A DNA stretch of 64,000 nt from Echinarachnius parma (lineage: Eukaryota > Echinodermata > Echinoidea > Clypeasteroida > Echinarachniidae). Numbering within the stretch: position 1 is the first letter of the stretch; every line of letters begins with the position of its first letter. Positions 40,601-64,000 of this stretch are shown here, piece after piece. The notes beneath the pieces were generated by a model that saw nothing but the letters and a program-made list of their open reading frames with translations, had not been told where the DNA came from and searched no databases. The position numbers and the translations under genes were made by a program. Location: assembly GCA_037951105.1 (NCBI GenBank), contig JBAMJV010003267.1, forward strand, positions 80,926-144,925. The letters run 5' to 3'.

Positions 40601-43600
40601 TCAGCATTGCGCCACACATTCACAGAACTCAGCCGGCCAGTCACGGGGAAACATCACATGTAAATTTGTACGATCTTCTTGGTGAGAGCCTTCAAAAAGT
40701 GGCTATAAATTAGCCTTTTTGTGATCAACACAATTTTGGTAGTCTACTTACATGATAACATGGCATTTGAAAGCTGAACAGATTAAAAAAATTACCCCCA
40801 AAACAATGAAAAACTGCGCTGAATATATCGATAAATTTCCAAAGCACGTTCGTGAGGGAAGGTTGAAGGGCAATTCCAAGGTAACAGCGTGACGGTAGGA
40901 GGGTGTTTCTCACGATGAAAGTCTAAATAACTCACAAAATAAAAATGTCCAGAACCAAATTTTGATATGCATCTGTTACCACTATCCTACTAATTATTTA
41001 CAATAGGAAAGAAAATCAAAATTCCCACTAAATTATGAATTATGAATATCAATATCTGCGGTAACAGCGTGACGGCAAAAAGACATGGGTTTCTTACATG
41101 GTAAGAAACTAAGCAAACTCTGTGAACTACAGGAACATTTTGCAATGTTGTCACATTGATTCTTTGTACTAGACATCAAGCTAGAACATCCAAATAAAAA
41201 TGTAGAAAAAATCCAATGTTCATAGTAAATATGATATCATAAACGTATCTGTGCACGGTAACAGCGTGACGGTAACAGCGTGACCTCTGAATTGTACATG
41301 TTATATATATGGGAGATATTGATGAGATGAATAAGATTATATAATTTTGATGTAGTCATCCAGAATCTATACACAACTAGATGAATGGGTAATATAACCC
41401 AGATGCTCTGAAATGATGGTTCGCATGACACAAATTTGCAGCCTAGCGCCCTCTATTGATCAAAAATGTTTTTGGACAAAACTGAAATTCTTATCTTTTT
41501 CAGAATTTAGTTTGAGGAACCATCAAATATCAAACCCAAAATACAAACTTAATTGCAACAATGAAATACTAGACCTTTGACATCTGACCTTTGACCTTAT
41601 TTCTCAAATTAGCATACAAATGTTTAATTTTATATGGCACAGTGCATATCTACAAGTGATTTGTTTCATGTAACATGATTTCAATGTCAGTAAGTTTTTG
41701 TGTTTGAATTGGTAATTATCCGAGTGACCTTTGACCTGTGCTCCAAACATTTTCATAGAATTTTCTTTTATCTACAGTACTCTTTCTAACATTAATTCTG
41801 GCATTTTTTTGTGAGATAAAAAATAAACTACAATAATTTGACCTGTTGACCCTTGACCCCATGACCAAATTCTATAATCATGTCATCTACTTCACTGAAC
41901 GCATACCAGTATTAATTATCATGTCATCCTTCAAGGATTCTTGAAATATCTTGAGAATAATATATTTTTTGCATATTAATTAGCTGTGACCTTTGACCTT
42001 TGACCTCATGGCCCCAAAATGTATCAGATAATCTATACCTCTGAATACATGTTTTGTACAAAGTTTGAACAGAATCCATCCAACGATTCTTGAGATATTG
42101 CAAAAAAAAAGTAGGTTGCGTCACGCTGTTACCCAAAAAGTAACAGCGTGACCAAATTGATATTGCTTAGATTAATTAGTGGTAAAAGATAATGCTGCTA
42201 TTTAGCATCCATAATATAGCCCTATGGGTGAATGAAGAAGAAACAAAAAATAATTTCATTCCCATTCATATTTTTCCAGAAATATTAAAAATACCTGTTT
42301 TTAGGGTAACAGCGTGACATATAGATGACTATAAATGAAACAGTCACTGAAGCAGAACAAAGAGCGAAAATGCCAAAATAGATATTTATCTGATAAATTG
42401 AAGTAATGTTCTTACCAACACTGAAAGAAAATTTTATGAAAACCTATTTTTGCAGCTCTTTTAAGCTTAATATTTACAAGTATATTTTGTGAAAATAATT
42501 GAAAATTAATTTATGCTAATTAATTCCTATGAAATAATAGTTTACGCCAAAAATTCTTTTGAACAAAATGCATTTCTGAATAGTTTAATCTTTAAGCTTT
42601 AATTTGATACCAAATATGTTATGATTCGACGAATTTGAAAAATGGGTGCTTATGTCAATGTTTGCTTGGAATTGCCCTGAAGTAGTTACGGTACCGGTAG
42701 CAGCAAGTTTTCGGGCCGCTGCACTGCTGGCATGTTTCACGCATATTCGCTCGTGTACGGGTCTTTGTTCTTACGCCGGATATGGATTCATCCGCGATCT
42801 GTTATGTATAGTTGTTATTTACCGATTTTTTTAGTAGTTGTTTGCATTGCTTTGGGGCTCAGTTTTTTTCTGTTCAGCTTTTAAACGCCATGCAATCATG
42901 TAAGTAGAATATCAAAACATTTAAACATGGTGCAAATAACCAAAATACATATTTTGAGCCACTTTTAGAATGCACTGGCTGATCAGCTCGATCATACAGA
43001 TATACATCTGAAGTCTCCCCGAGAGTGTCGGCCTAACTTTGTGTGCATTTCCGTCGGCAATATCGTTCAAATGACTAGCAATTTTGCGCATCCTGTTCAA
43101 TTTTCAACTGCGAAACGAATTAACGAACCAATAATTTCTCCAAAATAACCACTCATAAAGTAAACAATATTGATTCCCCCATTCTGTATTTAAATTACAC
43201 TACTTAATGGACTGTCAAACATACACATTTTCAATTATTACTGGAGAAAATGGGTCGGCAAAATCTTCCGATATTTTCTACCGAGAAAATTTATTTCTCG
43301 GATCCGGCTCGGAAGCGATTATCGCCGGGAAATCGGATCGTTCCCGGATCGGATAACAGCATTAGCAAACCATAATAATAGAGAGAGAGAGAGAGAGTGT
43401 CAATTTGTATAGTTGGGTTTTTTCAATGAAGTAAACAGTGGGGAACAGTAATAAACAGTAATACAGGCGGGAATTTAAAAAAAATAAAAATTCGGGGGCT
43501 CCTTTTAAAATTTGCCAGCATAAAAATAACTGTAAAATTTGTGTTGCATTGAACTCTATGCAAAGTTATGGGGACCTCTTCACTGCCGAATTTGCCCTGA

Positions 43601-49030: not shown

Positions 49031-49463
49031 TACAGGGTGGCCCAAAAAAACCGGAACGGGGCACTTCCCAAAATATAGTAACAAATGTATTATGTCCATC
49101 GGATAGAGTGTCTTTTCAAATGAACAACGATACCAAGAACAGTCAATTTGGTCGTGTAGTTTTTGTTTTAGGGCGCTGTGAATGACACCATGTTGTTAGT
49201 GTGCACTCAGCCGTGTGCCGAGAGAATGGGCATGCTCGCTGAATGGTATTACGGGCAAGGAGTGCGGTTAAACTGGCATTGACTAAATAAATCGGCACCT
49301 GACATGGTCTCACTCACTGCGTCCTTAAACAAAAACGACCTGACCAAAATTACTGTTCTTGGTATCGTTTTTCATTGGAAAGGACACCCTATCCGATGAA
49401 CATAAACATTGTGGTATTATGTTTTGGGAAGTGCCCCGTTCCGTTTTTTGGGGCCATCCTGTA
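49031..49463. mobile_element. Mariner-like MITE, TACAGGGTGGCCCAAAAAA ends
   Basis: TACAGGGTGGCCCAAAAAAA with 'ccggaacggggcacttcc' is inverted at 'ggaagtgccccgttccg' and GGGGCCATCCTGTA. TA at both outer ends. The long arms include 'ataccaagaacag' and its inverse. The 433-bp body lacks a transposase frame. Confidence 0.7.
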
Positions 49464-56900: not shown

Positions 56901-59900
56901 AACTCGGGTATGGTCATAGATCTTTTAAACAATCTTATAAATCTGTTGGTACATGGGGATGGGGGATATATTTGTCGACAGATCAACATTCATGGACTTC
57001 AGTACTTTCCCATGACTAAATTTCAAGTTAAAGTCCTTCCCATGCCAATTTAACTGTTCAACTATCCCTTCACAATTCTTTAAATGCCGAGTTGCTGGCT
57101 AGAAGGCAAAAGGTACCATTTTTTAGATCTTTGGTAGGGCCTGGTCAGATTTCGAACAGGAATTCCTAGGCTTGAGGTGGACACTAAAAATCGCTTAGCC
57201 ACCATGCCCATGAGAAATGTGTTAAAATGGGTGAATATTTTGGAAACTTACACTCTCCAGATACTATGTAAATATCAATAATTGTCTGTGCTTATAGACC
57301 CCAGTACTTTTCCACATGAGAAATGTGTTGAAATTTGTGAATTTAGAAACTTACACTCTCCAGATACTATGTAAGTATCAATGATGGTCTGTGCAGCGTT
57401 GAAGAAGTCTCCAAATTGAGCTTCCCAGACTACCAACTGCTGAGGGCTCTCTATACTCATTCCATACTCAAAACCAAGGACAGACTCCTCGGACAGAGGG
57501 CTGTTTGCAACCTGCATTGGAATAGAGTGAGGAGAAACAAAACCAACTAGGTCAGGTCCTGACTTAGCATTCAACTTGGCTTTTTTAAAGATGACCATAT
57601 AAAAACATTCATCATCATCAATTTAATTAAAGAGAAGAATCTTTTAAACGGGTCTAGTAGTAACTTTATATTGCCACCTGCAAAACTGATAAAGGGATGA
57701 TAAAATATGCATTATGTCTACCGAGTATACCGAGTGAAGTGTGAAACTGAAAGTTTAATGATGAATTAATGTTATATGACCAAAAAATGAAGAAAAAAAT
57801 GTCAAGTGTTATTTACACTTTGTATACAGTTGAAATAATCCCTTCTTTCCTCTCTCAATTTCAAATTCAAGAAAAAATATCTCAATAACATAGTTGACAT
57901 TTGAAAAACAAAAGCTGGTTTCAAACTTCAATTAGTAAGAGGGGAAAAAACGAGACATGGATGAACCAGTAGATTTATATTTGTGTGGTAGATTCAGACA
58001 AAGTTACTGATCTATCTCTTTTAAAATAGAACAAGATATCGCAAGAACAAAAACAGGATGGACGGACAGACAACCCGAAAACATAATGCCTCTGACCACT
58101 TTGTTGGCAGAGGCATACACAAAGTGAACATACCTCAAAGAAGCCTGTTTGTGCATCCTGAATGTGATTGAGTGGAATGTGAATGCCATCATCTTCTTGA
58201 TCCACCAGCATAGCATGGCGGTGACTGAAGGTACCTCTCCCTACATCCTGCCCACTCAGTCTTACATGGAATCCTGCAGGGAAAATATTTTGTACAAGGC
58301 TAGTATAAAGTATACTTATAGTACATAGTAATATATAGTATACGCAATATTGTATAAAGACGCTTTTTGCATATATTCTCTTGGAATTTCTACACTTATT
58401 GTTATGTATGAATGTACTATGAATTTTCTCCTTTTTTTCTTTTGTTTTCTCGGGCCACCAAAATTTGGTTTCGGGCCACCAAAATTCGGTTTCGAGCCAC
58501 CAAAATTCGGTTTCGGGCCACCAAAAAAAAAGACAAATAAAACCTCTAAAAAAAAGTTGATGATTTCAAAGCAATATCTCACTAAGAACATTTTTTTGAA
58601 ACAAAAATCATACACACAAATAACACTCCTCTAATTTCCGAAAGTTCACAGTCTATCACTTTTTCAACAATGTTCTTATGCTAAAAAATAACATCAGTTT
58701 CCTGCCCGTTATCAGCAAAAAAAAAAGAATAGGTGAAAACTAACCTTGCAAGAGAAGAGATCCAAAGGCCAGAGCCTCAGCTGTGGCCCAGTCCACATTG
58801 CTTCCATCTTGTAGTCGTTTCATTCTGGCATCGACGAAGGTCTTCTTTAAATGCGCGTGAATACTCTGTATTACAAGTGAGACATCATTCGCAGATAAGT
58901 ACAGGTATTAAAGAGATCTAATAACTTGTTGACATGTGCAAAACTAATGAATGGTTGATAAAATTGTATTTCTGTGCTCTGATATGTCCACTGAGTGATA
59001 TCTGAGAATTCCACGGTAAATGAATGTCATATGACTAAGTAATGAGCAAAAATGCAAAGTGATATTTACCTACTCATTGCACTGACTTTGTACAATCCGA
59101 AATATCTGAAAACTTCAATCGTAAATATCTTTCTAATGAAAGGGAAATTTGGAAAGCCAAAACCTTTTCCATGCTTCGATTGGTTATACGATTACAACAG
59201 GGTATGATATACCCACTAGAGTTCTATGTAAGCTGTGTGGATTTTGACAATGTTACTAGATCCCTTTAAGTATCAGTTTTCATTGTGGTTGTTTCTTCAT
59301 ATATTATGTCTAAATTCCCACAATCCTATAAATCTACATCACTATGATATTCCTATTATACCATTTTCTTTCATAACAATTTTGTGATTCATACTTACAA
59401 ACTCTTCTGGGAGTTCAACTGATTTAGCACCAATGTATTTAAGCAGTTGTCCATCAATTCCTGTACAAATGAAAACAAAAGACATTTCTTCTAAAATCAA
59501 TTTGACTGCATTTTCCTTCGGAAAAACGCTTGCAAATCTCACAAAGGTGCATTAAGCATAATTTGCTGATGAAAAATTGACATAGAAAACGAATACAGTT
59601 TATCATCAAGATTTATACATGGAATTACATTTGAATTTACTTGCACTCTTGATTCAAACAGTTTTCTGAATTTCAAACTTTAGGAGCCTTGAAGAAATCC
59701 AATTTAGCTCTTTTATTATGTATACATATTCCTATATTCAGATATGATGATAATCTGAAAAAGTGGCATCATATTATAGAAAGGCTTGTAACTACAAGAT
59801 GGTAGATAGCTCCATTAAACCATCAATTGTCTTTGGGTTTGTGTCAGGCTTATATAGCTTCTGACCATCGAGCATTGAAAATGGTTTCATGGAACGGCCA

Positions 59901-62172: not shown

Positions 62173-63831
62173 ATATGGGCAACTCCAGCGTCACGGACAT
62201 TACAAATCAGAGAATTTTCATGACTTTCCAATGCCACTACTAATTCATACCTCTAACTAATGTCTAACTTTTATTTTGATTACAAAACAATATCCTAGTT
62301 AAGTATTCAAAAAAAGTTTCAGAACATTTATCCAATTCGTTACTGAGTAATTCTGCGAAATGTGCGCAGTCACGGACATTACATCTTTTGGACATGACTT
62401 TTTGCATCCATATACATATTTGCAAAAGTCTGTGAGTTCTGAGACCTCACAAAGGTGATTTAGGTATTTAATTATAGACAAGGCAATGATGAATTGAATC
62501 CAAGTTGTTTTGGGGGAAACGGGCCAGGCATATGTGATCTAGACAACAAAACGTTGCGTCACGGACATTACATTTTCAGCGTCACGGACATTACACTTTT
62601 GTCCACTTTTTCTAAACTCAGAAATAACCCGCAAAAAATGCTCCATTGTGCATGACACTTTTTTAATTGTACATTTGATATGTAATCAAACAGTTTTGAG
62701 AACAAAAATTATATTTCAATTTTTTTTAAATTAGCAAAAAATTATTTTAAAAATATTAATAAGTTTTTCCAAAATTATTGTAAAATTTGAAAATTTTCAA
62801 CAGAATGTGCAGTAAACCAAATGTTCAACTATTTAAAATAATATTATACATTTTTAATGAGGTACAATGCTGTTTTGTGCCAAAAAATTGTAAAATCTAA
62901 AAAAAGTTGTGTACATCATGGGCATAACACATGGAAAATCATGGACTAAGAGTATAATTTTTGCAATTTGATCATACTATATGAGATTTAACCATCTCTT
63001 TCTCCTCCCAGTAAGTTATAGTCAAGTCTTTATTGATTATTGAGACATGCATGTTCAAATTAAGCAAGGAATTTAGTTTAATAAATAGTTCAGAGTACCG
63101 ACTCAAAGTTCACTATCTGATTAACGATACAATTTATTAAAACTTGAACCAGGAAGGTAGTAGTCCCCCTGTTACTTGGGATTATCTTATTTCTTGGCTA
63201 AAGTAAGACATTTACATAAGAAAATAATGCTTGATATTTTTTTGCTCTGCTTTTTTATACTTTTCACTGTGTATGTAATGTCCGTGACGTAATGTCCGTG
63301 ACGCCATTCTGGACAAGCCATCAAATATTTTAGTAAATGCTCTTGATATACTTTATGATATAACATTCTAGCTTTGCAAATGAATTTTGAATTAAATTGA
63401 ATTAGGACTTCTGCTTCTACAAAAACTTTTATATCTAAAACATTACACATCAATGTTGTAAGAATCAAGATTTTATCCAATATCAGTTTTCAAAAAGTAA
63501 AGATTTTTACACAATTTCCTTTTCTATGATGTTAAAACAAAGCATAAACAAGACATTAGAAGTAGAATTATTGTTCTGAAGTGATCCATATTTTTAAATT
63601 TTATTTCACAAACAACGGATGCAAATTTCATCATTTTTGGGGGTAATACATACAATTTTTGTCCCAACTTCAATGGCCAAAAAAAAAAATATTCTGCATT
63701 GAATTTCAAACTTTTTTCCTTTAGTCATCAAAATATGGTCCTTCCTCATTACTATCCAGTAGTTAACAAGGCTGTCCCATGAGTTTCATTTTTCCATCCT
63801 TGGGTGACATTTTTCGTGGAATTGCCCATAT
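62173..63831. mobile_element. GGGCAACTCC element B (1.65 kb, 4-bp TSD ATAT)
   Basis: GGGCAACTCCA (62177-62187) and TGGAATTGCCC (63817-63827) form terminal repeats flanked by ATAT on each side (62173-62176, 63828-63831). Inside are six copies of a GTCACGGACATTAC motif: forward at 62188, 62369, 62556 and 62579, and reverse at 63275-63289 and 63289-63304. As in element A, the first copy touches the left terminal repeat. The interior is AT-rich with no convincing ORF. It lies in the intron upstream of the first visible DHTKD1 exon. Confidence 0.8.
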
Positions 63832-63849
63832 ATCATTACTACAAATCTT

Positions 63850-64000
63850 CAGTGCTGTAGGACTCGAGTCCGGACTCGGTATCGAGACCGGTCTCGAGTC
63901 CGTATTTCTCGGGACTCGGACTCGGACTCGAGCCAAAAAGACTCGGTCTCGGACTCGACCAATGGTGACTCGTGACTCGGGCGAAAAACGGGCCGAAACC
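63850..64000. mobile_element. End of a CAGTGCTGTAG element, running off the window
   Basis: CAGTGCTGTAGGACTCGAGT opens a GC-rich stretch of repeated GACTCGG/CTCGAGTCC words. The start fits hAT-type ends (YARNG). Only one end is inside the window. Confidence 0.5.

Follow-up and report, generated by a model that had tools for sequence, protein, structure and literature searches.

The window, by which we mean the whole stretch of 64,000 nucleotides of Echinarachnius parma DNA analyzed here, carries close to its right edge a mobile element termed B and, farther to the left, a sister element termed A. Between positions 57975 and 61921, the minus strand holds pieces of a 2-oxoglutarate-dehydrogenase-like gene (E1_dh, with Transket_pyr below the cut-off), and element B lies upstream of the exon of this gene at 61.6-61.9 kb. 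The genes lying within the window and near it look like those of an animal. Just beyond the right end of B, degenerate short repeats of the GACTCGG type occupy positions 63860-64000. Direct reading of the window returned the coordinates, ends, ATAT duplication, and motif of element B as given in the preliminary description of this DNA, and its features are as follows:

62173..62176, no strand, left target-site duplication (TSD) ATAT, by direct reading
62177..63827, forward strand, element B, 1651 bp, non-autonomous copy of the 1.65-kb form B1
62177..62186, forward strand, left terminal inverted repeat GGGCAACTCC
62190..62203, forward strand, B motif 1, GTCACGGACATTAC, offset 13 from the left end
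62369..62382, forward strand, B motif 2, offset 192
62558..62571, forward strand, B motif 3, offset 381
62581..62594, forward strand, B motif 4, offset 404
63275..63288, reverse strand, B right motif, 539 bp from the right end
63289..63302, reverse strand, B right motif, 525 bp from the right end
63439..63440, forward strand, site of the third right motif lost from the window copy of B, placed by alignment of eight copies
63818..63827, reverse strand, right terminal inverted repeat GGAATTGCCC, which is GGGCAATTCC on the reverse strand
63828..63831, no strand, right TSD ATAT, by direct reading

The second left motif copy reads CAGTCACGGACATTAC, with two mismatches. A scan for the 16-mer containing the motif, at up to three mismatches, gave six matches against 0.19 expected, and none of 100 shuffles reached six, which bears out both the enrichment against shuffled sequence and the count of four forward copies on the left and two reverse copies on the right. 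The array had been described as starting exactly at the terminal repeat; it does start at the end, although the first 16-mer begins one base inside the decamer and is thus not flush with it. Additionally, one 12-mer is present six times in the window copy, and no 12-mer passed two occurrences in 200 shuffles, AT-rich and two-letter words being excluded from this test. In comparison with seven other 1.65-kb copies, the window copy is eroded by an 11-bp deletion between its two right motifs and by a 9-bp deletion that destroyed the third right motif, and it is 99.4% identical to the majority of eight B1 copies. It contains no transposase gene: the longest open reading frame (ORF) with a usual start has 97 codons, and the two ORFs tested against Pfam gave no match.

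The genome searched comprises 1.2 Gb in 14,790 contigs, in which the exact B 16-mer occurs 3743 times (reversed control, 0) and the B end followed by the motif (GGGCAAYTCC-N(0-8)-CGTCACGGACATTAC) occurs at 850 places, again with a reversed control of 0. Twenty of these 850 ends were examined over up to 10 kb each. Both exact ends were recovered at 13 of the 20 loci, and all 13 are bounded by a perfect TSD of exactly 4 bp. The seven loci in which a second exact end is absent (L010, L014, L016, L023, L025, L027, and L028) include, by alignment, near-complete copies with mutated ends, truncated or rearranged copies, and one copy cut by the end of its contig. A further complete copy with ATAT on both sides (L008) came from a separate search. 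When the 13 duplications are taken together with those of the window copies of A and B, position 1 is A in 11 of the 15 TSDs, position 3 is A in 13, and position 4 is T in 12, an AYAT-like bias in which ATAT appears five times and ACAT twice, the others having at least three A/T except for GCCT. Inverted ends, a TSD of fixed length, and insertion at many sites (13 of 20 loci; 850 ends) identify a terminal-inverted-repeat DNA transposon, and element B belongs to a high-copy family of non-autonomous DNA transposons. The end-to-end pair of decamers in L019 (GGGCAATTCC at L019:4876) was taken as chance rather than as a further family, since no duplication or partner was found and the adjacent sequence looks like ordinary exon-bearing DNA; L025 was rejected as an autonomous copy of B, its larger ORFs being read by eye as reverse-transcriptase fragments.

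The complete copies fall into three forms. B1 spans 1.60-1.69 kb, and the seven copies examined plus the window copy are 95.6-99.4% identical to their majority. B2 spans 0.71-0.79 kb, with one 2.3-kb copy bearing an insert; its left 420-430 bp are common to B1 at about 93%, after which the two diverge, and it has the four left motifs and none near the right end. B3 is a near-palindrome of 423 bp that folds back on itself. One such copy, at L015:4156-4578, folds back almost perfectly (DNA fold z -29) and bears motifs at both tips. Each of the 15 complete B elements read has its first motif at offset 13; where the other left sites (near 192, 381, and 404) exist, their positions agree to within 7 bp among the 14 non-palindromic elements. 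On the right side of B1, the nearest motif lies 378-397 bp inside the end (525 bp in the window copy, where the site was lost), and motifs reach up to about 575 bp inside, while the left array starts at the end. The layout had first been called symmetric, which does not hold for the window copy, where the right pair lies half a kilobase inside (525 and 539 bp), nor for B2; a symmetric layout was seen only in B3.

We further compared the motifs with their flanks across these forms. At two motif sites, the B1 majority and four B3 arms (the left and right arms of two loci) are identical at 108 of 112 positions, against 448 of 685 in the flanks, or 96% and 65%, respectively, and when the first 212 columns are ranked by conservation in windows of 14 bases, the top 12 all overlap motifs or the terminus. 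The four arms are related to each other, which inflates the count, so that the test amounts to about two or three independent comparisons rather than four. Read in this way, the difference makes the motif look constrained, and the B motif is probably a transposase-binding site, as predicted from its conservation. One could instead regard the motifs as functionless relics that a tandem duplication or gene conversion within the element left behind, and the two adjacent motif pairs, 23 and 14-25 bp apart, do resemble local duplicates. Relics, however, would not be expected to keep 96% identity while their flanks fall to 65%, and the layout recurs in element A with a different motif; we therefore consider this explanation very improbable.

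Element A, the sister of B, has the following features:

40864..40867, left TSD TGAA
40868..42677, forward strand, element A, 1810 bp, sister family
Left offsets 13, 193, 390, and 404, either strand, A motifs GTAACAGCGTGAC
Right distances 545, 525, and 359, either strand, A motifs GTAACAGCGTGAC
42678..42681, right TSD TGAA

The A motif has 1506 copies in the genome and the A end with its motif occurs at 372 places, with reversed controls of 0 in both searches. The preliminary description had held that the shared architecture would be chance if ends and motifs did not co-occur in other copies; with 850 places for B and 372 for A, they do, and the same ends, the same duplication length, and the related motif core agree with its view of A and B as two families of mobile elements. 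The motifs segregate as well: the exact A motif is found in none of the 15 complete B elements and the B motif is absent from the one A element read. The orientation of the motif relative to the end is reversed in A with respect to B, and a B motif in the A orientation behind an end with a short spacer was not seen among the matches listed (100 of 534). On the nine contigs that bear both A and B sites, the two are at least 32.9 kb apart among the matches listed (100 each). The window A element and the B elements have no blastn similarity (E up to 1e-6), the only blastn matches to A falling in two B loci, outside the B elements themselves.

The positions of the motifs are nevertheless close in the two families. 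In a B1 copy (L024), the left motifs stand at 13, 192, 381, and 404 and the right ones at 558, 533, and 380, near the layout of A, with a summed distance of 51 bp over six sites. None of 200,000 random placements reached 51 bp, and 174 of 200,000 did so when confined to the occupied spans, in a test that sets one A sequence, that of the window, against one B sequence, that of L024. All 25 A copies for which an exact end is listed carry a site no more than 5 bp from 193 or 390; the motif on the opposite strand lies at 1195-1255 in 18 of them and at 1430, 2298, 3561, and 9011 in four, and the remaining three have no position for it among the matches listed. This count covers clusters with a listed exact end, and thus stands apart from five others (C84, C114:207 kb, C238 twice, and C266). 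Motifs at similar positions in A and B, with a different motif sequence, suggest docking sites of the moving enzyme. Part of the shared spacing may, on the other hand, be inherited rather than constrained. The comparison of A and B gave z scores of 1.3 and 1.5 for the intervals between sites (reached by 22 and 17 of 200 shuffles), 5.0 for the left 430 bp as a whole, with tips and motifs counted in (0 of 200 shuffles), and 0.06 for the right ends, values by which a faint common ancestry is possible.

A more speculative view treats the sites, which on the left lie near 13, 190, 385, and 404 bp from the tip and on the right near 370, 530, and 550 bp, as marks of a ruler whose positions are under stronger selection than their sequence, such that the transposase family would have switched motif and orientation while the geometry was kept. 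The nucleosome repeat is close to the pitch of about 180-190 bp of the left sites, so the enzyme might read its end as chromatin. We regard this view as doubtful.

Other end types were found in the same genome. Ends followed by CGTCACG without the B continuation occur at 15 places, five of them of the form GGGCAAYTCCAAGCMTAGCGTCACGT, and ends followed by CGTGACG without the preceding bases of A occur at 534 places, of which 493 are GGGCAATTCCAAGCAAACGCCGTGACG, a type named D and known from its terminal 27 bases only. The first 18 bases of D are those of the right end of A, and D and A have the core CGTGACG at an identical offset. The terminal 14-mer of D was considered as an array and rejected, as it occurs 528 times in all (reversed control, 4) against 493 times at ends; it is hardly repeated elsewhere, and a motif array is thus seen in some, though not all, of the families with these ends.

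These ends also bear on whether the motifs could be sites for a host transcription factor or silencing factor, a promoter or insulator array that the transposon merely carries. Such a role would suit motifs found as far as about 575 bp in from the right end of B and a core, CGTCACG, that resembles common bZIP-type sites, and the binding of a transposase to the motif is on our side a prediction. A host-factor array, however, sits poorly with a nearest copy that keeps offset 13 throughout the 15 complete B elements read, and with a core that A, B, and D ends alike have among their first 27 bases; furthermore, motif and orientation differ between A and B at close positions, which fits a partner evolving with the element better. 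On balance, host-factor sites appear unlikely in comparison with docking sites of a transposase.

The search for such a transposase covered three protein families (DUF7869, DUF6589, and PF20700) and found no gene for A, B, or D, and it is for this reason that we infer the binding of a protein to the motif. The proposal that motif and cognate protein co-diverged between A and B, made when the two elements were first described, is accordingly kept here as a conjecture. DUF7869 (PF25273) has 66 matches in the genome, and on three contigs (C177, C42, and C5334) a DUF7869 gene lies about 6 kb from a B end or B motifs in the same orientation, as would be expected if this gene encoded the cognate transposase and the loci were autonomous B elements. 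The comparison of these loci, made over their left and right parts, argues strongly against it. The left 1.2-1.4 kb of C42 and C5334, which take in sequence beyond the B end, match C177 at 98.7-99.3% identity; on the right, from 8.2 to 14.8 kb, the identity is 95.9-99.5%, and the similarity ends at one point in all three contigs; and the B end belongs to a nested 784-bp copy of the 0.79-kb form B2, matched along its length. Since the flanks outside the B end are shared and the B copy is nested, the three loci are one duplicated unit and the association counts once. In C177, from the one DUF7869 group examined in this respect, no right end matching B was found 8 to 14 kb inside, and a terminal-repeat search of the unit gave low-complexity pairs and no convincing ends. 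In view of the shared flanks and the nested copy, DUF7869 was rejected as the cognate transposase, and we attach only a negligible likelihood to it. The unit itself, at least 14.8 kb long (L041-L042, L047; G000:C177, at or before 207618 to 222419; also C42 and C5334), combines a multi-exon DUF7869 gene, a short-period tandem array, and the nested B2 copy.

An A-type element at G000:C551:65984-75008 has its outermost listed motifs 9 kb apart, against the usual 1.2 kb, and is a candidate autonomous or interrupted copy. DUF6589 (PF20231) and PF20700 have 72 and 32 matches in the genome, of which none falls inside this long candidate (C551:66-75 kb), its end positions being taken from the matches listed (100 per pattern). 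PF20700, a Mutator-like transposase domain, forms tandem arrays of its own at G000:C174:301860-331354 (seven matches) and C9873:22115-32907 (three), with the same orientation every 4.5-4.8 kb and several matches in open frames of 693 codons.

With respect to known superfamilies, the target of piggyBac and Kolobok is TTAA, which none of the 15 TSDs matches. CACTA/EnSpm elements have subterminal arrays in which a protein encoded by the element binds a motif about a dozen bases long, and thus resemble B in the motif arrays of their ends, but they have CACTA termini and TSDs of 2-3 bp, in contrast to the GGGCAAYTCC termini and 4-bp TSD of B. Sola ends begin with GRG. By TSD length, AT richness, and these initial bases, which were the features compared, Sola2 is the best fit among the superfamilies considered, an assignment that we hold as tentative and somewhat short of even odds. 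Sola2 elements are described with 4-bp AT-rich TSDs (AWWT; ATAT, AAAT, ATTT) and inverted repeats of 12-21 bp (Bao and Jurka 2013, PMC3627910); the 15 TSDs found here are likewise AT-rich and 4 bp long and the inverted repeats likewise short (10-11 bp), whereas motif arrays are not mentioned for Sola2 in the portion of that paper available to us (PMC3627910). The rule given for Repbase, in the accessible part of its source, places elements in one superfamily when they have the same TSD length and positions 1-11 alignable with at most one mismatch (PMC4455052). The tips of A and B, GGGCAATTCCA and GGGCAACTCCA, align in this manner with a 4-bp TSD in both, and by this rule, applied to their sequences, A and B are assigned to one superfamily.

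The closest functional parallel comes from hAT elements (Hermes, Tol2, and Ac), which share with B short subterminal repeats at fixed positions from the tip (PMC10368747). According to the sections of that work available to us, several BED domains of the Hermes transposase hold the left-end subterminal repeats and none hold the right end, and the exact phasing of the left-end repeats matters (PMC10368747). In B, too, the left end is predicted to be held through repeats and the right end without them. The left sites of B differ in that they extend over 400 bp at intervals of about 180-190 bp, and the TSD of Hermes is 8 bp (same source, PMC10368747), as opposed to 4 bp in B, where the longest direct match is 4 bp at all 13 loci; by TSD length, B is not a hAT element. 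Hermes is nevertheless the best parallel for B, which by this analogy may work in a similar way. A literature search by keyword, covering titles and the openings of abstracts, with motif letters and Repbase outside its scope, returned nothing on these families; A and B are new families of a kind already known.

Drawing on the observed ends, 4-bp duplication, target bias, motif conservation, fixed spacing, and B1/B2 asymmetry, we consider, with a probability of roughly three in four, that B is a high-copy non-autonomous cut-and-paste family moved in trans, whose 14-bp motif most likely serves the transposase or an accessory protein as a docking site, the binding being part of what we infer. Coding for nothing recognizable, B would be moved by a transposase encoded elsewhere. 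This enzyme would cleave at the GGGCAAYTCC tips and choose for insertion a 4-bp AT-rich target of the ATAT type, leaving the 4-bp duplication. The DNA-binding domain of this enzyme, or an accessory protein, would dock on the motif at fixed distances from the left end, such that a putative DDE-type transposase would assemble on the left array and pair it with the right tip. The left array is proposed as the main loading platform because the 0.79-kb form has multiplied without motifs near its right end. Element A would then be a sister family in which the tips and site positions were kept and the motif sequence and orientation changed.

These families are abundant, with at least 850 (B), 372 (A), and 493 (D) ends, and a single autonomous copy could fix their superfamily. 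Near-identical tips combined with different motifs at the same positions offer a natural experiment on the co-evolution of transposase and docking site, and the autonomous partner, once found, would allow binding specificity to be swapped between A and B. Finally, the window carries another inverted-repeat element, at about 49033-49461, with ends like CAGGGTGGCCCAAAAAAACCGGAACGGGGCACTTCCC and TA on both sides, which is unrelated to A and B; a GGGCACTTCC pair at positions 49059 and 49436 is part of this element.
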